A stretch of DNA of 64,000 nucleotides. Source: Pegea sp. RAD2-039. Its lineage: Eukaryota > Chordata > Thaliacea > Salpida > Salpidae. Made by a program: the position numbers and the translations under genes. Positions 3,176 to 61,643 of the stretch are shown here, piece by piece; positions within the stretch are counted from its first letter, which is position 1; each line of letters begins with the position of its first letter. The stretch is taken from the NCBI GenBank assembly GCA_034620365.1, contig JAQGEQ010000045.1, forward strand, positions 372,001 to 436,000, written 5' to 3'. The notes beneath the pieces are model-generated. The model was not told where the DNA came from, searched no databases, and saw nothing but the letters and a program-made list of their open reading frames with translations.

Positions 3176-6021
3176 TTAAAATGGGAAATTTTCACATATG
3201 TCAGGTACACATGGTTGATAGCTGACTATGACATGTTCAATCTTTTCATTCGTTCTTGCAACTTCTTTCCATTCGTTTGTTACTTCATTGTAACATTGGA
3301 CAATTTTAGCATTTTCACTTCCAGAATGACTTTCTGAAACAATCAACAAGCTCATCACAATTATGCAAATTATTGTAAACATCTTAAACATTTTATTAAA
3401 AAGTTTTTCAATTCCAAACATAAGAAAAGTTTTACCAAAAACATAAATCTTCTTATTAAAGACAACAGCTTTTGGGCATCTCCTTGCATATTTCATACTT
3501 GCTACAAACTCCCAATTATCATTGAGGACATCGTATCTTTCTACAGTTTTTAAATTTTCTCCGTAATTCCAACCACCAATGGCGTAGATATAATTGCCAA
3601 GCGTGACTACATCTTTAATGATTTTAGAATTAGTTATCATCATAAGATCAAAACGTCATCGTGACGTCATCAGCAAATACCTAGAGCCCTTCGAGGTGTC
3701 AACATCGATTTTACAGAACTCCATTCGTCCTTCTGTGGATCATATTTATCCACACGAGCAACTGTGTTAGAGAGTTCTTCTTCACCACCGACAACATACA
3801 ACATCCGGTTGAAGACAGCACAACCGAAAAATTCACGATATCTATTTAATGAAGCTCTTTGTGTCCATTCATCATTGATTGGATCGTATCTGGAAATAAC
3901 ATAATAGTTTTTGGAACATGAAGTTTTGGTTGAAATGTCATTTCATCACTCACTTCATCAATCTAGTTTTATTACCACCTTGAAAAAGATACAATTCATT
4001 TTCAATAACTGCCATTTTCGACCATCCAAACTCAAAATAATAAACTTTTAAACTTTTGCACTTCTTCCACTCATTTAAAATTGGGTTGTATCTAGAAATG
4101 TGATGACGTCATATTTAGTTTGCAATGATGATGTCATCATTTGCTTCATGCTTCTAACCTTTCCACATCACCATTCCACTTTAACATATAAATGAAACCG
4201 TTCATGACAACAGATCTTGAAACATTTCGAAGACGTATCTTTGGAAGTTTAAACCAAACACCTGTATCAGACAAACGGAACTTTGCACTTTTCAAAGATT
4301 TCTCATCAGATCCAAAAGATTCATCAATGACGTAGATCACCTGTGACGTCATATGTCAGTGATTGAAGTGAAAAGTATTTAATTAAATAATCTTACCTGC
4401 CGAATATCAAGTTGTCTTGGTTTACATTCAATAGGAATGTAAGCTTTGAGGTCATCGAGGACCTTGCTGAGATACTCATAACAAGTATCTCTAATTACAT
4501 CACAACTTTCTAATTTCATCGAGATAAAATTTGGATTTATCAAATGGCATCGTACCTAGAGAAATCACAATTTTATACTCACAAGTCTACAACTTTATAG
4601 TTTCTAGATACTTACGTTCTTAATTAACTTATTTAAACAATGTTTTCTTGAAGTTAAATCATATTTGATCCAATCTAAAAGAGCATTGAATACTTGGGAT
4701 TCACAAATCACATGAAGCTCATCTTTTGAAATTATTTTACAAATTACAGAGTCTGGTTGTAATTTGAATTCTTCACTTTTTGAAATCTGGTAAATATCAT
4801 GAGATCAATCAAAAACTTTTTATTATTAAATATGAAAAGAACAAAATCAGTAGAAATAACGAAGCAAGTAAATATTTCATAAATATTTAAGTTTGATGAA
4901 GTAGAAAAAATCTTTGTACTTAAAATGTTTTAGCCAAGAAAATAATATTTCTCTATTTTCTTACTTCTATAAAGTTTTTTCCAATAAATTTTTCAATTTT
5001 CGTTGAAGGCTCCAAAAATCCATAATTCTCAGCAAATGTTGAAAATCCAATACAGTTGGAAATTTCAATTTGACTTTCCAAAAAGCTGTAATTGATCAAG
5101 TATAATTACAAAAACTATTGAAAGAAACTGATTAATAAAACTAGCTTACTTGCTACATAACTTCTCTAAACCATCTATTTGATACATGGAATCTGCAATC
5201 ATCAGTTTCTCAACATTTTCTTCATTTATTTGTATTTTGTTTGTGTAATTGTATCCTAGAAGATTAGAGAATACATTTGGGTCTACCTCATTTAAGGTAA
5301 CTTCCCGAGAATATGATTCTTTAAATCCACCTTAATAAATTCAAATAGTTTTTTGTTGATATATTCAGTTATTTTACAACTGAAGTTGAATCTTGAATCT
5401 AACTTACGACAAAACATTGCTTTAAAATAAGGGGAAGCAGCAACTAATATACGTTTGTCACAAATGAAAGTTCTTTCAAATCCATTTAATTTCACTTTGA
5501 TGCTAACATCATGAATCTGAGAATCTTCAGAAGAGTCATTCAGTTTAAGATGATGAAGATTTGTACAATTATCAACTTCCGAAACTTCATCTCTAAAATT
5601 ATCAAAAGTATAATTTACTTTAGTATCAAATTAAAAATAAAGAATTAGAAACAAGTTTGATAAAAATAAAAAAAAGTGAATAATTAAAACCACAAATACT
5701 TATTTCAGTTCTTAAATTTATAAATAAATAGAACAATAAAATTTAAATTCTTCTAAATGATTGAGTAACACTAAAATGACTCTAAAACAAATTAGAAATA
5801 GAATAATTACAAGTTAAAATTGATGAAATTTAAGTTATTAATCTTTTTAGATGCAACAAAAATATTTTTCTAATCTGAGTTTATTTTAAATAAAAAGTGA
5901 ATTTAAAGTAAGTACTTAGCGAACAATTTTAAGTGAAGACACAAAATTCTACTAACCTTTTATCATCTGTAGTTGGCATAATTGAATCGAAAACAACTTT
6001 GCTATTTAATCTATTTACCAT
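3176..6021 (-). CDS. BTB-BACK-Kelch (KLHL-type) protein, gene 1
   Basis: A KLHL-family protein; such proteins pair with CUL3 through the BTB domain and hold ubiquitination substrates with the Kelch propeller. Eleven exons, read on the minus strand: 6021-5957, 5592-5408, 5330-5150, 5085-4965, 4786-4616, 4555-4397, 4340-4159, 4091-3954, 3889-3681, 3612-3436, 3333-3176. They join without a stop into 581 residues. BTB is about residues 50-150 (ASPYFKAMF near 77), BACK about 155-265, and six Kelch-like blades run from about 295 to the end (YVVGGE, YAIGGW, YVFG). Exon 8 is three codons longer than in genes 2-4. The donor after AMFC is gtaagt; reading through it gives a false 67-codon ORF. The stop overlaps an AATAAA signal. 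An acceptor CAG lies about 38 bases before the ATG. Substrate unknown. Confidence 0.93.
3662..4351. promoter_or_regulatory. Three intronic TGACGTCA palindromes in Kelch gene 1
   Basis: Perfect CRE octamers (the CREB/ATF site) lie at 3662-3669, 4104-4111 and 4344-4351, in introns 9, 7 and 6. All three are present at the same places in the other Kelch copies. A regulatory role is inference; the sites also sit close to splice junctions. Confidence 0.5.
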
Positions 6022-10889: not shown

Positions 10890-12673
10890 TTAAAATGGGA
10901 AATTTACACATATGTCAGGTACACATGGTTGATAGCTGACTACTACTTGATCAATCCATTCATTCGTTCTTGCAACTTCTTTCCATTCATTTGTTACTTC
11001 ATTGTAACATTCGACAATTTTAACAACATCTTCTCTTCCAGAATAACCTCCTGAAACAATCAACAAGTTCATCACAATTATGCAAATTATTGTAAACATC
11101 ATAAAAATTTTATTAAAAAGTTTTTCAATTCCAAACATAAGAAAAGTTTTACCAAAAACATAAATCTTCTTATTAAAGACAACAGCTTTTGGGAATCCTC
11201 TTGCATATTTCATACTTGCTACAAACTCCCAATTATCATTGAGGACATCGTATCTTTCAACAGTTTTTAAATTTCCTTCTCCGTAATTCAAACCACCAAT
11301 GGCGTAGATATAGTTGCCAAGCGTGACTACAGCTTTAATGATTTTAGAATTAGTTATCATCATAAGATCAAAACGTCATCGTGACGTCATCAGCAAATAC
11401 CTAGATAACTTCGAGGTGTCAACATCGATTTTACAGAACTCCATTCGTCCCTCTGTGGATCATATTTCTCCACACAAGAAACTGGGTTATACAAATCGTT
11501 GTTACCACCGACAACATACAACATCCGGTTGAAGGCAGCACAACCGAAAAATTCACGATATCTATTTAATGAAGCTCTTTGCGTCCATTCATCAGTGATC
11601 GGATCGTATCTGGAAATAACAAAAGAGTTTTTGGAATCTAAAGTTTTGGTTGAAATGTCATTTCATCACTCACTTCATCAAATCTTTTCCATTCTGATCT
11701 TTAAAAAGATACAATTCATTTTGAACAACTTCCATTTTCGGCATACGCAATTTATTGTCTAAACTTTTGCACTCCTTCCACTCATTTAAAATTGGGTCGT
11801 ATCTAGAAATGTGATGACGTCATATTTAGTTTGCAATGATGATGTCATCATTTGCTTCATGCTTCTAACCTTTCCAAATCACCATTCCACTTTAACATAT
11901 AAATGAAACCGTTGATGACAACAGATCTCTCAGTTCTTGAAAGACATATCTTCGGAAGTTTAAACCAAACATCTGTTTTAGACAAACGGAACTTTACACT
12001 TTCCAAAGATATCTCATCAGATCTATAAGATCCATCAATGATGTAGATCACCTGTGACGTCATATGTCAGTGGTTGAAGTGAAAAGTATTTAATTAAATA
12101 ATCTTACCTGCCGAATATCAAGTTGTCTTTGCTTACTTTCAATTGGGATGTAAGCTTTATCATGAACCTGAGAATCTTCAGAAGAATCATTCAGTTTAAG
12201 TTGATGAAGATTTGTACAATTATCAACTTCCGAAACTTCATCTCTAAAATTATCAAAAGTATAATTTACTTTAGTATCAAATTATAAATAAAGAATTAGA
12301 AACAAGTTTGATAAAAATAAAAAAAGTGAATAATTAAAATCACAAATACTTATTTCAGTTCTTAAATTTATAAATAAATAAAATAATAAAATTTAAATTC
12401 TTCTAAATGATTGAGTAACACTAAAATAATTTTAAATCAAATTAAAAATATAATAATTACAAGTTAAAATTGATAAAATTTAAGTTATTAATCTTTTTAG
12501 ATGCAACATAAATAATTTTCTAATCTGTTTTTATTTTAAATAAAAAGTGAATTTAAAGTAAGTTTATTTAGCGAACAATTTTAAGTGAAGACACAAAATT
12601 CTACTAACCTTTTATCATCTGTAGGTGGCATAATTGAATCGAAAACAACTTTGCTATTTAATCTATCTACCAT
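10890..12673 (-). CDS. Kelch-only protein, gene 2 (BTB and BACK deleted in frame)
   Basis: Seven exons, minus strand: 12673-12609, 12243-12108, 12051-11870, 11802-11674, 11609-11401, 11332-11153, 11050-10890, giving 353 residues with no stop. The second exon fuses the first part of exon 2 of the full gene to the last part of exon 6: the sequence goes from EDSQVHD straight to KAYIPIESK near 12160. The removed piece is 681 coding bases (227 codons), so frame and splice phase are kept. BTB and BACK are wholly absent, while all six Kelch blades remain, with intact splice sites. By family knowledge it could not join CUL3 through BTB or dimerise that way, so it might act alone or compete for substrate; that is inference. 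Start, stop and flanking sequence match genes 1 and 4. Confidence 0.9.
11382..12062. promoter_or_regulatory. Three intronic TGACGTCA palindromes in Kelch gene 2
   Basis: Perfect octamers at 11382-11389, 11815-11822 and 12055-12062, in the introns equivalent to introns 9, 7 and 6 of the full genes. They survive even though this copy lost its BTB/BACK exons. Confidence 0.5.
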
Positions 12674-22808: not shown

Positions 22809-25675
22809 ATGGTAGATAGATCAAATAGCAAAGTTGTTTTCGATTCAATTATGCCACCTACAGATGATAAAAGGTTAGTAGAATTTTGTGTCTTCACTTA
22901 AAATTGTTCGCTAAGTAAACTTACTTTAAATTCACTTTTTATTTAAAATAAAAACAGATTAGAAAAGTATTTATGTTGTATCTAAAAAGATTAATAAATT
23001 CAAATTTACAATTTTAAATTGTAATTATTATTTTTCTAATTTGTTTTAGAGTCATTTTAGTGTTACTCAATTATTTAGAAGAATTTAAATTTTATTGTTT
23101 TATTTATTCATAAATTTAAGAACTAAAATAAGTATTTGTGGTTTTAATTATTCACTTTTTTTATTTTTATCAAACTTTCTTCTAATTCTTTATTTTTAAT
23201 TTGATACTAAAGTAAATTATACTTTTGATGTTTTTAGAGATAAAGTTTCGGAAGTTGATAATTGTACAAATCTTCATCAACTTAAACTGAATGACTCTTC
23301 TGAAGATTCTCAGATTCATGATGTTAGCATCAAAGTGAAATTAAATGAATTTGAAAGAACTTTCATTTGTGACAAACGTATATTAGTTGCTGCTTCACCT
23401 TATTTTGAAGCAATGTTTTGTCGTAAGTTAGATTCAAGTTTCAACTTCAGTTGTAAAATAACTGAATATATGAACGAAAAATTATTTGAATTTATTAAGG
23501 TGGATTTAAACAATCATATTCTCGGGAAGCTACCTTAAATGAGGTAGACCCAAATGTATTCTCTGATCTTCTAGAATACATTTACTCAAAAAAAATACAA
23601 ATCAATGAAGAAAATGTTGAGAAACTGATGATTGCAGATTCCATATTTCAAATAGATGGTTTAGAGAAGTTATGTAGCAAGTAAGCTAGTTTTATAAATC
23701 AGTTTCTTTCAATAGTTTTTGTAATTATACTTTATCAATTACAGCTTTTTGGAAAGTCAAATTGAAATTTCCAACTGTATTGGATTTTCAACATTTGCTG
23801 AGAATTATGGATTTTTGGAGCTTTCAACCAAAATTGAAAAATTTATTGGAAAAAACTTTATAGAAGTAAGAAAATAGAGAAATGTTATTTTCTTGGCTAA
23901 AACATTTTAAGTACAAAGATTTTTTCTACTTCATCAAACTTAAATATTTATGAAATATTTACTTGCTTCGTTATTTCTACTGATTTTGTTCTTTTCATAT
24001 TTAATAATAAAAAGTTTTTGATTGATCTCATGATATTTACCAGATTTCAAAAAGTGAAGAATTCAAATTACAACCAGACTCTGTAATTTCTAAAATAATT
24101 TCTAAAGATGAGCTTCATGTGATTTGTGAATCCCAAGTATTCAATGCTCTTTTAGATTGGATCAAATATGATTTAACTTCAAGAAAACATTACTTAAATA
24201 AGTTAATTAAAAACGTAAGTATCTAGAAACTATAAAGTTGTAGACTTGTGAGTATAAAATTGTGATTTCTCTAGGTACGATGCCATTTGATAAATCCAAA
24301 TTTTATTTCGATGAAATTAGAAAGTTGTGATGTAATTAAAGATACTTGTTATGAGTATCTCAGCAAGGTCCTTGATGATCTCAAAGCTTTCATCCCAATT
24401 GAAAGTAAGCCAAGACAACTTGATATTCGGCAGGTAAGATTATTTAATTAAATACTTTCCACTTCAACCACTGACATATGACGTCACAGGTGATCTACAT
24501 CATTGGTGGATCCAATAGATCTGATGAGAAATCTTTGGAAAGTCTAAAGTTCCGTTTGTCTGAAACAGGTGTTTGGTTTAAACTTCCAAAGATTTGTCCT
24601 CGAATTGTTTTATGTTCTGTTGCCATCAACGGTTTCATTTATATATTAAAGTGGAAAGGTGATATGGAAAGGTTAGAAGCATGAAGCAAATGATGACATC
24701 ATCATTGCAAACTAAATATGACGTCATCACATTTCTAGATACAACCCAATTTTAAATGAGTGGAAGAAGTGCAAAGGTTTAGACGATGAATTGCGTTGGC
24801 CAAAATTTGGAGTTATTGAAAATGAATTGTATCTTTTTGAAGGTGATAATGAAACTAGATTGATGAAGTGAGTGATGAAATGACATTTCAACCAAAACTT
24901 CATATTCCAAAAACTATTATGTTATTTCCAGATACGATCCAATCACTGATGAATGGACAGAAAGAGCTTCATTAAATAGAAGTCGTTACTTTTTCGGTTG
25001 TGCTGTCTTCAACCGGATGTTGTATGTTGTCGGTGGTGAAGAGGATTTCTTTATCTCAGTTGCTCGTGTGTTGAAATATGATCCACAGAGGGACGAATGG
25101 AGTTCTGTAAAATCGATGTTGACACCTCGAAGTCATCCAGGTATTTGCTGATGACGTCACGATGACGTTTTGATCTTATGATGATAACTAATTTTAAAAT
25201 CATTAAAGGTGTAGTCACGCTTGGCAACTATATCTACGCTATTGGTGGTTGGAATGACGGAGAAGTTTTAAAGACTGTTGAAAGATACGATGTCCTCAAT
25301 GATAATTGGGAGTTTGTAGCAAGTATGAAATATGCAAGAGGACTCCTAAGCGCTGTTGTCTTTAATAAGAAGATTTATGTTTTTGGTAAAACTTTTGTTA
25401 TGTTTGGAATTGAAAAACTTTTTAATTAAATTTTGATGATGTTTACAAAAATTTGCATAATTGTGATGAGCTCGTTGATTGTTTCAGGAAGTCGACCCGT
25501 AATTTATTATAAAGAAGAAAATGCAGGTCAACAATGTTATCTAGAAGTTGTCGAATGTTACAATGAAGTAACAAATGAATGGAAAGAAGTTGCAAGAACG
25601 AATGAATGTATTTATCATGTCATAGTCAGCTATCAACCATGTGTACCTGACATCTGTGTAAATTTCCCATTTTAA
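22809..25675 (+). CDS. BTB-BACK-Kelch (KLHL-type) protein, gene 3
   Basis: Eleven exons: 22809-22873, 23238-23422, 23500-23680, 23745-23865, 24044-24214, 24275-24433, 24490-24671, 24739-24867, 24932-25140, 25209-25385, 25488-25675. They total 1767 bases and give 588 residues, in the size range usual for KLHL proteins. BTB (about 50-150) includes ICDKRILVAASPYFEAMF and SREATLNEVDPNVFSDLLEY; BACK (about 155-265) includes FLESQIEISNCIGFSTFAEN and SQVFNALLDWIKYDL. Six Kelch blades follow, such as VIYIIGGS, YVVGGE and YAIGGW. The family role is substrate binding for CUL3 ubiquitin ligase; the substrate here is unknown. Differences from the other copies include a longer loop after the last intron (RPVIYYKEENAGQQCY) and a stop inside intron 10. 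An acceptor CAG sits at 22771-22773. TAA overlaps AATAAA. Confidence 0.95.
24479..25159. promoter_or_regulatory. Three intronic TGACGTCA palindromes in Kelch gene 3
   Basis: Perfect octamers at 24479-24486 (intron 6), 24719-24726 (intron 7) and 25152-25159 (intron 9), at the same relative places as in the other three copies although this gene is inverted and isolated from the array. Confidence 0.5.
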
Positions 25676-31572: not shown

Positions 31573-34411
31573 TTAAAATGGAAAATTTACACATATGTCA
31601 GGTACACATGGTTGATAGCTGACTATGACTTGATCAATCCTTTCATTCGTTCCTGCAACTTCTTTCCATTCATTTGTTACTTCATTGTAACATTCGACAA
31701 CTTCTACAACATCATCATCTATTCCAGAAAAACCTCCTGAAACAATCAACAAGTTCATCACAATTATGCAAATTATTGTAAACATCATAAAAATTGTATT
31801 AAAAAGTTTTTCAATTCCAAACATAAGAAAAGTTTTACCAAAAACATAAATCTTCTTATTAAAGACAACAGCTTCTGGGTATCTTCTTGCATATTTCACA
31901 CTTGCTACGAACTCCCAATTATCATTGAGGACATCGTATCTTTCAACAGTCTTTAAAAAACCTTCGTGATTCCAACCACCAATAGCGTAGATATAGTTGC
32001 CAAGCGTGACTACATCTTTAATGATTTTAGAATTAATTATCATCATAAGATCAAAACGTCATCGTGACGTCATCAGCAAGTACCTAAATCACTTCTAGGT
32101 GTCAGCATCGATTTTACAGAACTCCATTCGTCCCTCTGTGGATCATATTTCTCCACACTAGCAACTGTGTTATACAAAGCGCAACCACCGACAACATACA
32201 ACATTCGGTTGAAGACAGCACAACCGAAAAAGAGACAACTTTTATTTAATGAAGCTCTTTGCGTCCATTCATCAGTGATCGGATCGTATCTGGTAATAGC
32301 AAGAGTTTTTGGCAAATGATGTTTTGAATTAAATGTCATCTGATCACTCACTTCATCAATATGTTTTCATTACCACCTTGAAAAAGATACAATTCATTTT
32401 CAATAACTCCAAATCTCGGTATACACAATTTATCGTCTAAACTTTTGCATTTCTTCCACTCATTTAAAATTGGGTCGTATCTAGAAAAGTGATGACGTCA
32501 TATTTAGTTTGCAATGATGATGTCATCATTTGCTTCATGCTTCTAACCTTTCCATATCACCATTCCATTTTATCATATAAATGAAACCGTTGATGACAAC
32601 AGATCTCCTAGTTGTTCGAAGACTTATCTTTGGAAGTTTAAACCAAACATCTGTTTCAGACAAACGGAACTTTACACTTTTCAAAGATTTCTCATCAGAT
32701 ATATTGGATCCATTAATAACGTACATCACCTGTGACGTCATATGTCAGTGGTTGAAGTGAAAAGTATTTAATTAAATAATCTTACCTGCCGAATATCAAG
32801 TTGTCTTGGCTTACTTTCAATTGGGATGAAAGCTTTGAGATCATCAAGGACCTTGCTGAGATATTCATAACAAGTATCTCTAATTACATCACAACTTTCT
32901 AATTTCATCGAAATAAAATTTGGATTTATCAAATGGCAACGTACCTATAGAAATCACAATTTTATACTCACAAGTCTACAACCTTATAGTTTCTAGATAC
33001 TTACCTTCTTAATTAAATTATTTAAGCAATGTTTTCTTGAAGTTAAATCACATTTGATCCACTCTAGAAGAGCATTGAATATTTGGGATTCACAAATCAC
33101 ATGAAGCTCATCTTTTGAAATTATTTTAGAAATTACAGAGTCTGGTTGTAATTTGAATTCTTCACTTTTTGATGTCTGGTAAATATCATGAGATCAATCA
33201 AAAACTTTTTCTTATTAAATATGAAAAGAACAAAATCAGTAGAAATAACGAAGCAAGTTTCATAAATATTTAAGTATGATGAAGTAGAAAAAATCTTTCT
33301 ACTTAAATTGTTTTAGCCAAGAAAATATCATTTCTCTATTTTCTTACTTCAATAAAGTTTTTTCCAATAAATTTTTCTATTTTTGTTGAAAGATTAATAT
33401 ATCCATAATTCTCAGCAAATGTTGCAAATCCAATACAGTTGGAAATTTCAATTTGACTTTCCAAAAATCTGTAAGTGATAAAGTTTAGTTACAAAAACTA
33501 TTAAAAGAAACTGATTTATAAAACTAGCTTACTTGCTACATAACTTCTCTAAACCATCTATTTGAAATATGGAATCTGCAATCATCAGTTTCTCAACGTT
33601 TTCTTCATTTATTTTTATTTTTTTTGAGTAAATGTATCCTAGAAGATCAGAGAATACATTTGGGTCTACCTCATTTAAGGTAACTTCCCGAGAATATGAT
33701 TCTTTAAATCCATCTTTATAAATTCAAATAGTTTTTGTGTTCATATATTCAGTTATTTTACAACTGAAGTTGAATCTTGAATCTAACTTACCACGAAACA
33801 TTGCTTCAAAATAAGGTGAAGCAGCAACTAATATACGTTTGTCACAATTGAAAGTTCTTTCAAATCCATTTAATTTCACTTTGATGCAAACATCATGAAT
33901 CTGAGAATCTTCACAAGAGTCATTCGATTTAAGATGATGAAGATTTGTACAATTATCAACTTCCGAAACTTCATCTCTAAAAACATAAAAAGTATAATTT
34001 ACTTTAGTATCAAATTATAAATAAAGAATTAGAAGAAACATATAAGTTAGATAAAAATAAAAAAAATGAATAATTAAAATCACAAATACTTATTTCAGTT
34101 CTTAAATTTATAAATAAATAAAACAATAAAATTAAAACTCTTCTAAATGATTGAGTAACACAAAAATGACTCTAAAACAAATTAGAAAGAATAATTACAA
34201 GTTAAAATTTATTACATTTAAGTTATTAATCTTTTTAGATGCAACATAAATACTTTTCTAATCTGTGTTTATTTTAAATAAAAAGTGAATTTAAAGTAAG
34301 TTTATTTAGCGAAAAATTTTAAGTGAAGACACAAAATTCTACTAACCTTTTATCATCTGTAGTTGGCATAATTGAATCGAAAACAACTTTGCTATTTGAT
34401 CTATCTACCAT
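31573..34411 (-). CDS. BTB-BACK-Kelch (KLHL-type) protein, gene 4
   Basis: Eleven exons, minus strand: 34411-34347, 33976-33792, 33713-33533, 33468-33348, 33175-33005, 32944-32786, 32729-32548, 32480-32352, 32289-32084, 32015-31839, 31736-31573. They join in frame to 579 residues. Domain order matches genes 1 and 3: BTB with ASPYFEAMF then RDGFKESYSREV, BACK with FLESQIEISN, and six Kelch blades including YVVGGC and YAIGGW. Exon 9 is one codon shorter than in the other copies. The usual CUL3-adaptor role is assumed from the family. Upstream, homology to the other copies stops about 135 bases before the ATG, so this gene may have acquired a different promoter; that is inference. TAA overlaps AATAAA. 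Confidence 0.93.
32065..32740. promoter_or_regulatory. Three intronic TGACGTCA palindromes in Kelch gene 4
   Basis: Perfect octamers at 32065-32072, 32493-32500 and 32733-32740, in introns 9, 7 and 6. Confidence 0.5.
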
Positions 34412-36015: not shown

Positions 36016-37073
36016 AGATTAAATCATCTCTCGAAAGAGTTTTTAAATGAAGTAGGATTTTGCAAAACACTAAAATAAACCAACTTTATATAAGTTTAGT
36101 TTAAATAATAACTGAAATTAGTAGTTATATGAATGATAATAAGAAAGTATTTTTTTGGAAATTAGATGTACTTCAAGTGAACAAAAGTCATTTAGTAGAA
36201 ATGAAACTTGCCAACATACTTGAAGTATTCACTAATGTAATAATTGAGTTAGAATTGAAATAGTAAAATTTATATGAATCTTATAAGAAAATAAAGAAGC
36301 CAATTTATTTTAAACAGTCGTACAAATGTACTAAAATTATAAGGCTATATCACTGCACTAAGTCAGATGATATTTTACAGAATTAGAAAAATTATATTCC
36401 TTTTAAAAATTGCTTCTTGAAATTTTTACTATAGTTAAATAAAATTGCTTAGTGAAAGTAAATTAGTTTAATTTGTTTGTAATTATTTGTCGACTTTAAT
36501 ACACCAAATTGTAACAGATCACATTATAAAAAGGATTTTTATCTTTATTTTTACTATCAAATCTTGTGTAAGTTTTAGTCAGACTTAAAGTGTGCAAAAC
36601 AACTTTGTAAGGCTAAAAATACAATTTTAAACAGTATCTATTAATAGTAATTATGATACCTACATCTTGCCTCTGTTTTATGATCCTTGTATAATTACTT
36701 TTTATACTCAGTTGTTTGTAACATCCCCTGATCTTCCGTTCTTCAATGTCTAATAAATGCAAAAACATTTATAAGCAATAATTTTTGTTTCTGCTTTTTT
36801 AACCTTCCTAGTTCAAGCCTAGAGGCTGGCAGAATCCAATTACTGCCATTACCACCTGCAGTGCCAGCTTGGTCTTGGTCTGGCTCTTGTTCTTGAAATG
36901 AACCGCTTAACAAATAAATGCTTAAAAACCGCTTACATTAATGCTTTTATGTACATTAAATCCGACAGACATGAAGTTCCATCATTTGCACATCGAGAAC
37001 TTCATCAAGTTCTTCCATGATCACAAAACTAATGAAGTGACAAGAAAACAACAAGAAGAATCTAGTAGTATAC
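36016..37073. other. Spacer between the ZIP pieces
   Basis: AT-rich, no gene recognised. The downstream ZIP exon that should follow the donor at 37073 on the minus strand is not found here. Confidence 0.5.
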
Positions 37074-37331
37074 CAAAATCTCCTAGTTCATGGGGAAGCT
37101 CTTCACAAAATATTGCTATTGAAGTACTTAATCCTTGAATAGGAGATGCCACAAAAGATGCACCAATAGCCATTCCATCAATAAAGTTATGAACAGCATC
37201 CACAACTGTTATCATCCAAGCAATTGGTTTGACTTTCTTAAAATTGAATATGGATTTTTTGGAATTTCTTACTCCAACGGAAACAATCCGATTACTCCAC
37301 TCTAGCTCCAAATCATAGATTTCAAAACCTT
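37074..37331 (-). pseudogene. ZIP (SLC39A8/A14-like) zinc transporter, single isolated exon
   Basis: An open 258-base exon flanked by an acceptor (ttccag) and a donor (gtatac). It encodes [20 protein letters not shown], then [35 protein letters not shown]. The HNFIDG and EELPHELGD motifs are the two metal-binding transmembrane helices of LIV-1-type ZIPs (EEXPHE form, typical of ZIP8/14). No stop inside, so it could be functional, but neighbouring exons are missing on both sides: upstream DNA reads as another remnant on the opposite strand, and downstream has no continuation. It is probably an orphan exon from a rearranged copy, in opposite orientation to the piece at 35055-35528. Confidence 0.8.
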
Positions 37332-37346
37332 CTGGAATTGGAAGGT

Positions 37347-38090
37347 AGCATCTCCTAATAGTCAGATTGTCGGTGGAACAGCTGGTCTAGTTGGAGTAAA
37401 TCCGAAACAACATGTTCGATATCCGAGGTTTACAGAACAAGAAACGAATTATGCTATAAGACAACACAATTGCCCAGAAAGCCCAAGGAAAAGTAAAACG
37501 TGTGGACATGTTTGTTGCCCAGAAAATTGTATCAGGGGAACGTGGTCAGTACAGTCTGGACAGTCGATGTAGTTGTCACAAATTTGTGATTTGGAATCAT
37601 GGAAAAGTGCAGAGTATCGTATGTCTGAAAGGGATGTTTGCTTTAAACTTCCAAAGCTATTCTTCCAGTCTTGTTTCTTCCATATGTAGGAAGTTTTTGC
37701 TTTTAAGGAAACGATTATTATTATTGTTTTTACAGAAGAAATATCTTAAGGTAACCTAGAGGTATTTCTTGGACGATGCTAACTGCTATAATTTGCAAAG
37801 AACAAAGTTTGTCGAAGAATTTGTCAAGAAATTTCACGTTTAGTAAAAACGCTGTTTGTTAATTTACTTTTTGATAAAATTAATCTAAAACTAACTACAA
37901 AAGATTGGTCTCGACCTGTCAAAGTAACGTGGTCTGATATTCGAGTTCCTCTCTAGTTCAAATTACAGAAAAGGGAACTTCGTATGTCAGTCATCAATCA
38001 AACATATCCAAATATAAATTCAACTTACTATGTAACTTGGTCAGCGTTGAGAGTTATTAAACGTGTAACTTCATTTTACATTTTAGTGTA
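37347..38090 (+). pseudogene. Cys-rich, possibly thrombospondin-type-1-repeat remnant
   Basis: A less AT-rich stretch. The plus strand is open at first: [58 protein letters not shown]. Thereafter stops and frame changes appear, with two more TWS phrases (VTWSDIRV near 37930, VTWSALRV near 38030). Repeated (G/V)TWS with nearby Cys suggests decayed TSP1 repeats, but no complete WSxW...CSxTCG repeat is present, so the family is tentative. It abuts the ZIP exon on the other strand. Confidence 0.3.
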
Positions 38091-59980: not shown

Positions 59981-59993
59981 ATAGTTTATCAAA

Positions 59994-61643
59994 ATGACCA
60001 CTCAAGACATCAACTTAGATGACTACATCATTGATGAAGACTTTGATGTCCTACAAGATGATCTAGATAGCTTCCGACAGAAATGGATTGATGAAGTTAA
60101 ATCTAAACAAGGTTCATCTTCATCATCAAATAAAGCTGAAGAAGCCGATGATTTATACAGAAAAGCAGTTTGTTGTGAACAACAGGGTAAAATGGATACA
60201 GCTGTAAAACTCTACCGTCAAGCATTTCGATGTGATCAAGATGTTGAAGATCGGATACAAATCATTTCAAGTGAATCCTCTAATACCTCTGAAGATAAAA
60301 ATGAAAATCAAATAGATCTACTCTTAAAATTTTCTCAAATGAACTTTAATAACAATTCAGAAAGTTCAGAATTAAATATCAGTCAATTTCCATCAGAGTT
60401 ACTTCTTCTAATCTTCCGTTATGTCATCTCTCATCATCATGATGTAAAGTCCTTAGAAGCTCTTACATCCACTTGTAAACGCTTTTATAGTATTGGAAGA
60501 GACTCGAGTCTTTGGAAGTCTTTATGTCAGAGTAGTTTTGGTGGCGATGTCAGATTGAATAGTTTTTCATCTTGGAAAGACATGTACATTCATCGACCAT
60601 CTGTAAGATTTGATGGTGTCTACATCAGCACAATCAGTTACTTTCGTCAGGGGGACCCCACTGTTCTATCGCCCCATTTCTCCCCATTTCACTATGTGGA
60701 GTACTTCAGGTATTTTGTTTTTTTATATCTTCAAAGAATATTTTTAATAACATTTGTAGACTGCTTCTCATGTTAGCTAACTAAAGTGACAACCAGAGTT
60801 TGAACTGCTTATCAGAAGAGTATTTTACCGCATACGTAAATGTGTTGCCAAATTATTCAGTCTGCCCTCGTTTATTTGATCTTAAGCAGTCTTTCCAACT
60901 TCTGTTTTTCACCTTTAAATGTCTTCAAATCTCAAGTTGAAAACACTTTGTTGTTTTTATTTTGGTATCCATGGAAACCATCACCTCTCTTTTATTACTG
61001 AGCAACAAGTGATCAGTGTTAGAGATCTGGGGAAACCCCTTAAACGGAAAAGGCGGCCAGAGGTTAAAGAAAGGTTCTTTGGGGTTGTGGTTTCTTCCAG
61101 CATAACTTCTTTATAATTTCACATTTAGTTTAACTTTTGATTTCAATCATCTGATAATTACTCCGTTTACAATTTCGCAGGTACGTAAGGTTCTTGAGCG
61201 ACGGAAGAATGCTATTCCACACTTCAAGTGATCCTCCTAGTGTCATGGTTCGAAAGATCATCCCTCAAAACTCCTCTCAGCTTTGTTTTCGAGTTGGGAG
61301 TTACAAAATGATACCCGATAAAAACCCAACAGCAAAAACGGCCATAATTTCCGCAACATTAAAAGAAGATAGAAGTTCAGTTGGTCGGCAGAGAACTCCT
61401 CGCCAAACTGAAGCGATGTATGTGAAAACTGACTCAGAATTCTATCTGGAACTTGAACTCTCTTCATCTTCTTCTCGAAAACGATCCAACAAACTGTCCT
61501 GGAAGAGTTACAAATGGAAATATTTCTTTGGGTTCGCTGGGGACAAAGTTTTGAATGATGGTATTGAAAACATCGAACAAGATCCCTCGTTCTTTTTCAG
61601 TCATGTCAGATCCTTTAACCAAACAACAGAAGGTGCTTTTTGA
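59994..61643 (+). CDS. FBXO9: FBXO9, F-box protein of SCF ubiquitin ligase
   Basis: A substrate adaptor of the SKP1-CUL1-F-box ligase; in vertebrates FBXO9 targets the mTOR-regulating proteins TEL2 and TTI1. Two exons, 59994-60709 and 61181-61643, join in phase (FR then YVRFLSDGRM) to 392 residues (human about 440). An acidic N-terminus ends with FRQKWIDEV. A TPR-like helix pair lies at about 48-82 (ADDLYRKAVCCEQQGKMDTA), and the F-box at about 129-176 (FPSELLLLIFRYVI, TCKRFYSIGRDSSLWKSLC). The conserved C-terminal region has VRFDGVYISTISYFRQGDPT, HYVEYFRYVRF and FSHVRSF. The end, SFNQTTEGAF, matches the family end. An acceptor tatag at 59984 lies 9 bases before the ATG. The second half of exon 2 has a Ser/Arg-rich insert. 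Confidence 0.96.

Follow-up and report, generated by a model that had tools for sequence, protein, structure and literature searches.

KLHL proteins are CUL3 adaptors in which BTB, BACK and Kelch domains follow one another in that order. Kelch propellers without BTB are found in KLHDC-type proteins, and some Kelch-only proteins, e.g., KLHDC2, work with other ligases. Rapid evolution of ubiquitin-ligase adaptors has been described in nematodes: according to an excerpt of PMC4334554, which cites Thomas 2006, the MATH-BTB and F-box adaptors of C. elegans show strong positive selection in their substrate-binding but not in their cullin-binding domains, and the fast-evolving adaptors of nematodes are read there as a defence against foreign proteins. 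For tunicates, an excerpt of PMC7517041 gives 32 Klhl genes in Ciona robusta and a 'tremendous increase' of Klhl9/13; the tree of that study excluded highly divergent Klhl sequences, and the excerpt mentions neither hypervariable Kelch arrays nor BTB-less members. In the openly licensed literature we found no description of either in tunicates.

The stretch analysed here (the window, 64,000 nucleotides of the salp Pegea sp., positions 372001-436000 of contig C14) contains four paralogues of one BTB-BACK-Kelch gene. Three of them resemble KLHL adaptors in having BTB, BACK and Kelch in the identical order. The array differs from KLHL adaptors in that gene 2 and five further copies lack BTB and BACK, and in that the Kelch face is hypervariable between tandem paralogues. 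Gene 2 shares with the KLHDC-type proteins a Kelch propeller without BTB, but differs from them in its descent from a BTB-BACK-Kelch gene, whose introns and leader it retains. The likeness to Ciona robusta, as far as the excerpt describes it, lies in a lineage-specific duplication of Klhl genes, here a tandem expansion with four copies in the window and 17 in 160 kb of contig C97; the differences are the hypervariable Kelch arrays and the BTB-less members. Like the Caenorhabditis families, again as excerpted, this is a large adaptor family with positive selection in the binding part only; unlike them, its binding part is Kelch, its host is a tunicate, and it includes adaptor-less copies with open frames that reassort binding segments with the rest.

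A Kelch gene without BTB and BACK

The features of the four genes are as follows (window coordinates).

3176..6021, minus strand: gene 1, BTB-BACK-Kelch paralogue, intact, 581 codons; gene 2 lacks the stretch that corresponds to 4448-5507
10890..12673, minus strand: gene 2, Kelch gene without BTB, 353 codons from ATG to stop (exon projection, open frame, Pfam)
12609..12673, minus strand: gene 2 exon 1, 65 nt, ATG start, donor GT (exon projection)
12108..12243, minus strand: gene 2 fused exon, made of the first 85 nt of exon 2 (12159-12243) and the last 51 nt of exon 6 (12108-12158) (self-BLAST, exon projection)
12158..12159, unstranded: gene 2 deletion junction (identical junction at five other genomic places)
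12052..12107, minus strand: gene 2 intron 6, 56 nt, nearly invariant across the family, TGACGTCA at 12055-12062
11870..12051, minus strand: gene 2 exon 7, 182 nt, where the Kelch propeller begins (exon projection)
11803..11869, minus strand: gene 2 intron 7, 67 nt, nearly invariant across the family, TGACGTCA at 11815-11822
11674..11802, minus strand: gene 2 exon 8, 129 nt, variability highest among the exons of the family (pi 0.18); most copies have in-frame length variants here
11401..11609, minus strand: gene 2 exon 9, 209 nt (exon projection)
11333..11400, minus strand: gene 2 intron 9, 68 nt, TGACGTCA at 11382-11389
11153..11332, minus strand: gene 2 exon 10, 180 nt (exon projection)
10890..11050, minus strand: gene 2 exon 11, 161 nt including the stop (exon projection)
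22809..25675, plus strand: intact BTB-BACK-Kelch paralogue, 588 codons, reference for exon projection
31573..34411, minus strand: intact BTB-BACK-Kelch paralogue, 579 codons

In a self-BLAST of the window, gene 1 and gene 2 align on either side of a clean 1060-bp gap: one block ends at 4447 in gene 1 and at 12158 in gene 2, and the other begins at 5508 and 12159, respectively. Projection of the exons of the copy at 22809-25675 onto gene 2 gives the same break: exons 3-5 are absent, exons 7-11 are complete, all splice sites are present, and the coding sequence of 1062 nt has no internal stop. The preliminary description had exon 2 joined directly to the end of exon 6 with exactly 227 codons missing, and both statements hold, the coding loss being 681 nt. 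In gene 2 the sole Pfam hits are Kelch (Kelch_1, 8.5e-46) and further beta-propeller families; an intact copy has BTB and BACK in addition to a Kelch region that is likewise strong, in keeping with the loss of BTB and BACK and the retention of all Kelch exons that had been described. The three intact copies have GT-AG at all introns.

Gene 2 keeps introns 1 and 6-10, which rules out a retroposed or processed copy, and its 353 codons are open, without the frame disruption of a pseudogene. The frame-keeping genomic deletion first proposed is thus supported. Having neither BTB nor BACK, gene 2 is by definition not a KLHL adaptor; it retains the C-terminal Kelch propeller and is derived from one.

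The same junction at six places

The genome (105.7 Mb, 387 contigs) was searched with a 181-bp query spanning the junction of gene 2, and 40 matches of 363 first-look candidates were scored; these lie on contigs C14, C97 and C116 and set a lower bound on the size of the family. Among the 40, end-to-end matches (97-100%) occur at six places on the three contigs: C14:384080 (gene 2), C97:163330, C97:214690, C116:350037, C116:418444 and C116:433804. The remaining 34 end at or near the junction, 33 at query base 102 and one at base 128. Gene 2 is therefore one of a recurrent BTB-less class, which enlarges the original observation of a single copy.

The frame is open in all six BTB-less copies (352, 353 or 372 codons), and five have every splice site intact; in the sixth (C97:162145-163922, the gene at the C97:163330 match) the donor of exon 1 is TT in place of GT. 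The 3-kb units around the six copies are about 4% or more apart from each other, as fits separate loci. Nor are C97 and C116 simply allelic haplotigs, since their nearest cross-contig matches are at about 96% and follow no one consistent order; they carry mostly paralogues, and individual pairs, e.g., C97:214690 with C116:350037, may be allelic.

Other deletions and lesions in the array

Large deletions recur in this array. The 160 kb of C97:100001-259584 hold 14 full-structure copies, two BTB-less copies, one copy with a second deletion, two remnants, one edge piece and one exon 7 fragment. The second deletion (C97:103677; L039 4200-4380) again joins exon 2 to exon 6 but is independent: compared with the first, its left end lies 95 nt further on and its right end 5 nt earlier. 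It puts the later exons out of frame, and just one of the 40 scored matches spans its junction, which makes it a singleton. The two remnants, C97:118285-119157 and C97:123889-124760, are related to each other: exon 2 is joined to exon 10, BACK and most of Kelch are lost, the frame is broken, and one of the two has no ATG. C97:103677 serves as a natural control for the earlier remark that random deletions usually break the frame. The frame-keeping deletion multiplied to six copies and the frame-breaking one did not; with one event of each kind, this agreement is suggestive only.

Compared with the BTB-less class, with six of six frames open and five of six copies complete in their splice sites, full-structure copies read to their end are free of lesions in 12 of 17 cases (3/3 in the window and 9/14 in C97:100001-259584); with five of 17 broken, decay is common here. 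The five, all on C97, carry a frameshift (154382, 177186 and 242282) or a stop (170321), or have no start codon (228446). An apparent TG acceptor before exon 3 was not counted as a lesion, as AG stands three bases upstream in all 11 full-structure C97 copies that show it. On C116, where reading covered exons 1-7 only, 12 of 13 further copies are lesion-free, and the remaining one, L015, has no GT after exon 2.

The Kelch exons are open in all four copies outside the BTB-less class whose lesions lie only outside Kelch (C97:103677, 170321, 228446 and 242282). Openness of Kelch can therefore come from youth or gene conversion, and an open Kelch frame is weak evidence of function. The preliminary description had noted that the later exons are in phase and stop-free; this is true of gene 2, but as a sign of function it is poor.

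We note that the units of C97:148040 and C97:222304, about 74 kb apart, are 99.6% identical, as after a very recent duplication or conversion.

Segment exchange between copies

At distances of 60-120 bp, linkage of biallelic sites across 24 copies is 0.44; at 120-250 bp it is down to 0.10, and past 1 kb to 0.05, against 0.04 expected for unlinked sites. Linkage between paralogues is thus near background beyond 120-250 bp, which points to frequent exchange. The exons likewise differ in their relationships: their distance matrices are almost uncorrelated (exon 7 versus exon 8, rho -0.02), and in the BTB-less copy at C97:213503 exon 7 is nearest to the full-structure copy C97:242282 (3.9%) and exons 8-9 are nearest to the BTB-less C116:349625. 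The site with the strongest association to the BTB-less class (r2 0.79; next highest 0.37) is in exon 6, some 30 bp away from the junction. In two BTB-less subgroups exon 8 is shared internally (up to 2.3% apart), with the nearest of the 18 other copies about 15% away; for exon 9 of the subgroups the nearest other copy is about 5% away. For intron 1, exon 10 and exon 11, a BTB-less copy often has its closest match in a copy with BTB, and the class does not form a closed lineage. Kelch segments thus reassort between BTB-less and other copies over tracts of about 100-200 bp. Taken together, these patterns indicate that the deletion most simply had a single origin, and that the Kelch exons behind it have come repeatedly from a common pool.

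Some introns of the Kelch genes carry a CRE-like palindrome, TGACGTCA, which occurs 13 times in the window against 0.28 expected. Twelve of these are in introns 6, 7 and 9 of the four Kelch genes, at the following window positions.

3662, 4104, 4344, 11382, 11815, 12055, 24479, 24719, 25152, 32065, 32493, 32733: TGACGTCA in Kelch-gene introns

Introns 6, 7 and 9 have the palindrome in 23, 24 and 23 of 24 copies, respectively, and in the same 24 copies it is absent from introns 1-5, 8 and 10 and from the exons. It occurs 51 times in the 160 kb of C97, and in five of seven more distant Kelch loci on other contigs. To see whether the palindrome marks a hot spot of recombination, linkage across two introns that have it (7 and 9) was compared with linkage across two that do not (8 and 10); the difference is -0.15, with an interval (-0.30 to 0.01) that includes zero.

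Diversity and selection

The Kelch exons diverge more than the introns between them (e.g., window 10890-12051), most strongly in exons 7 and 8, with nucleotide diversity of 0.13 and 0.18, versus introns 6 and 7, with 0.016 and 0.013. The other Kelch exons have 0.071-0.088 and the other Kelch introns 0.035-0.062.

Selection was assessed by dN/dS, given here as simple counting estimates with codon bootstrap on recombining genes. The Kelch set of 22 copies consists of all six BTB-less copies and 16 others, four of which (C97:103677, 170321, 228446 and 242282) are broken outside Kelch. Left out were C97:154382 and C97:177186 (frameshift in exon 8, the former also without AG before exon 5), C97:118285, C97:123889, the edge piece C97:259227 and the 13 C116 loci read only to exon 8.

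Residues 51-277, the part lost in gene 2, have a dN/dS of 0.37 (0.24-0.61) in 15 full copies, and the cullin-binding part thus shows no positive selection. Over the whole Kelch region the value is 1.24 (0.94-1.67) in all 22 copies, an interval that includes 1, 1.51 (1.03-2.28) in the six BTB-less copies and 1.16 (0.88-1.55) in the 16 others. A split by columns with at least four amino acids was set aside, as it selects on variability, and a split by KEAP1 ligand contacts was used in its place; KEAP1 (6wcq) is the best PDB sequence match of the family, whose Kelch region aligns along the KEAP1 propeller. Contact columns ±1 give 2.10 (1.15-4.26) in all 22 copies and 2.47 (1.13-6.85) in the six BTB-less ones. 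The remaining Kelch columns give 1.05 (0.76-1.53) and 1.28 (0.79-2.11), respectively, and in the BTB-less copies these estimates give no clear sign of constraint outside the contacts. Positive selection in the binding domain is thus found at the contact columns only.

Variability is concentrated on the same face. Entropy at the 14 KEAP1 ligand-contact columns is 1.55 versus 0.48 elsewhere (p 5e-5), and in the BTB-less copies alone 0.89 versus 0.28 (p 5e-5). The set includes the contacts Arg380 and Asn382, the second of which is invariant across the family. The other contacts come from an excerpt of PMC6891428, in which Gly530 is printed where the chain has Gln. The 16 other copies share 140 invariant columns; at these the BTB-less copies have 0-3 changes, and leave-one-out gives 0-6 for the 16 themselves. 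In the three BTB-less sisters that are closest to one another, 21 of 24 variable codons alter the amino acid (one of the 21 involves an in-frame gap), a proportion that, judged without a formal test, is not clearly above expectation. As Kelch segments move between the classes, BTB-less copies may have acquired their signal of selection along with segments from other donors. On these sequence patterns, the intact family is best understood as target-recognising ubiquitin-ligase adaptors under diversifying selection.

Possible function of the BTB-less copies

Gene 2 retains the full KEAP1-type Kelch region, including its closing C-terminal stretch, and isolated Kelch domains of KEAP1, KLHL2, KLHL12 and KLHL20 have solved structures (PDB sequence matches), so a Kelch-only product could fold. 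A genomic deletion removed BTB and BACK in frame and left the form now seen in six copies, whose Kelch exons exchange segments with other copies and vary at columns matching the KEAP1 ligand-binding face. The predicted protein would be soluble, with a 67-residue leader followed by a six-bladed Kelch propeller; having lost BTB and BACK, it should neither dimerise through BTB nor recruit CUL3. It may bind targets of the kind seen by intact paralogues with a related face without ubiquitinating them. In doing so it would act as a competitor, a shield or a decoy, and would thereby tune or block those copies that degrade. The preliminary description had this copy bind the same targets as its intact neighbours. 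That suggestion is weakened, as the putative face differs between almost all copies and is reshuffled among them, and targets would not simply be inherited. We put at about 0.42 the probability that gene 2 belongs to a Kelch-only class of a large, rapidly diversifying BTB-BACK-Kelch tunicate array and is a non-degrading binder or competitor. Taken separately, a working Kelch-only protein is slightly more likely than not, and a role specifically as competitor or shield is plausible but less probable.

The main rival is that the BTB-less copies are non-functional passengers, i.e., that one deletion was duplicated with the array and the frames are open by youth and by constant conversion from working paralogues. 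The four Kelch-open copies with lesions elsewhere, the near-background linkage, the lost splice donor in one of six BTB-less copies and the five broken full-structure copies of 17 are all as it would predict. Against it, all six copies are open over the whole coding sequence: when their private changes are placed at random, 3.6 of six are broken on average, and in none of 2000 trials did all six stay open, a test that is too strong because of gene conversion. In addition, only one other such deletion was found, and that one is out of frame and stayed single. We consider passengers a possible but doubtful explanation.

Alternatively, a Kelch-only protein could be made and have a different role, with another partner or ligase in the manner of KLHDC2, and not compete with its intact relatives. 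The exon 8 shared within the two BTB-less subgroups, and to a lesser distance exon 9, would fit a function of their own, but the often BTB-containing relatives of intron 1, exon 10 and exon 11 speak against a class that has gone its own way, and we regard such a role as quite unlikely. More improbable still is a role as a reservoir, in which the BTB-less copies would supply Kelch variants to intact genes by recombination and would not matter through their own protein. The uncorrelated exon 7 and exon 8 distances and the mixed affinities of C97:213503 are what such a reservoir would leave, but there is no sign of a direction of transfer, and full-structure copies are far more numerous donors. 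Finally, although tandem units with a similarity of about 89 to 99.6% are difficult to assemble, an assembly collapse or chimaera, which the preliminary description had named as grounds for refutation, is barely credible with the same junction at six places on three contigs in 3-kb units about 4% or more apart, and an error at one place is excluded by that recurrence.

Beyond the preferred reading of gene 2 as a non-degrading binder, a wider interpretation, which we hold to be unlikely as a whole, is that an array of many tens of Kelch genes would use its Kelch exons as exchangeable, diversifying recognition cassettes, set between short introns of low diversity (three with TGACGTCA) and shuffled by short-tract conversion. 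It would have two outputs, degrading BTB forms and bind-only BTB-less forms, and could serve innate recognition or defence with built-in antagonists. A tunicate, as a chordate close to vertebrates, that diversifies its Kelch faces as nematodes do their adaptors would be a tractable system for learning what adaptor families recognise, and the adaptor-less versions in the same exchange pool would allow one to ask whether bind-only relatives act as brakes or decoys. The array also carries a warning: where copies exchange heavily, function cannot be concluded from one domain whose frame is open.

Other observations in the window and genome

At Rfam gathering scores, no known RNAs are found in the window or in L039-L046. 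COX1 gave no match. Cuticle families of nematodes and arthropods gave none either, but as the control genomes were equally silent, this negative is uninformative. By eye, open frames at window 59985-61643 (plus strand) resemble an FBXO9-type F-box protein, and an open frame at 37021-37386 (minus strand) resembles an exon of a ZIP metal transporter. Elsewhere in the genome, many Kelch matches of near-equal score, mostly open frames of 68 residues, lie on C160, C181, C186, C187, C240, C242, C336-C339, C363, C367 and C368, which suggests a second amplified Kelch gene. Two signals led us to read the host, from its sequence, as a Ciona-like tunicate. Glycosyl hydrolase 6 gives one exon-sized match just over the cut-off (27.5 versus 27 bits); such a domain in an animal recalls the tunicate cellulose synthase. 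A tunicate spliced-leader sequence with a donor occurs 42 times, 33 of them on C4 at a spacing of mostly about 199 bp, versus 0 for the reversed control.
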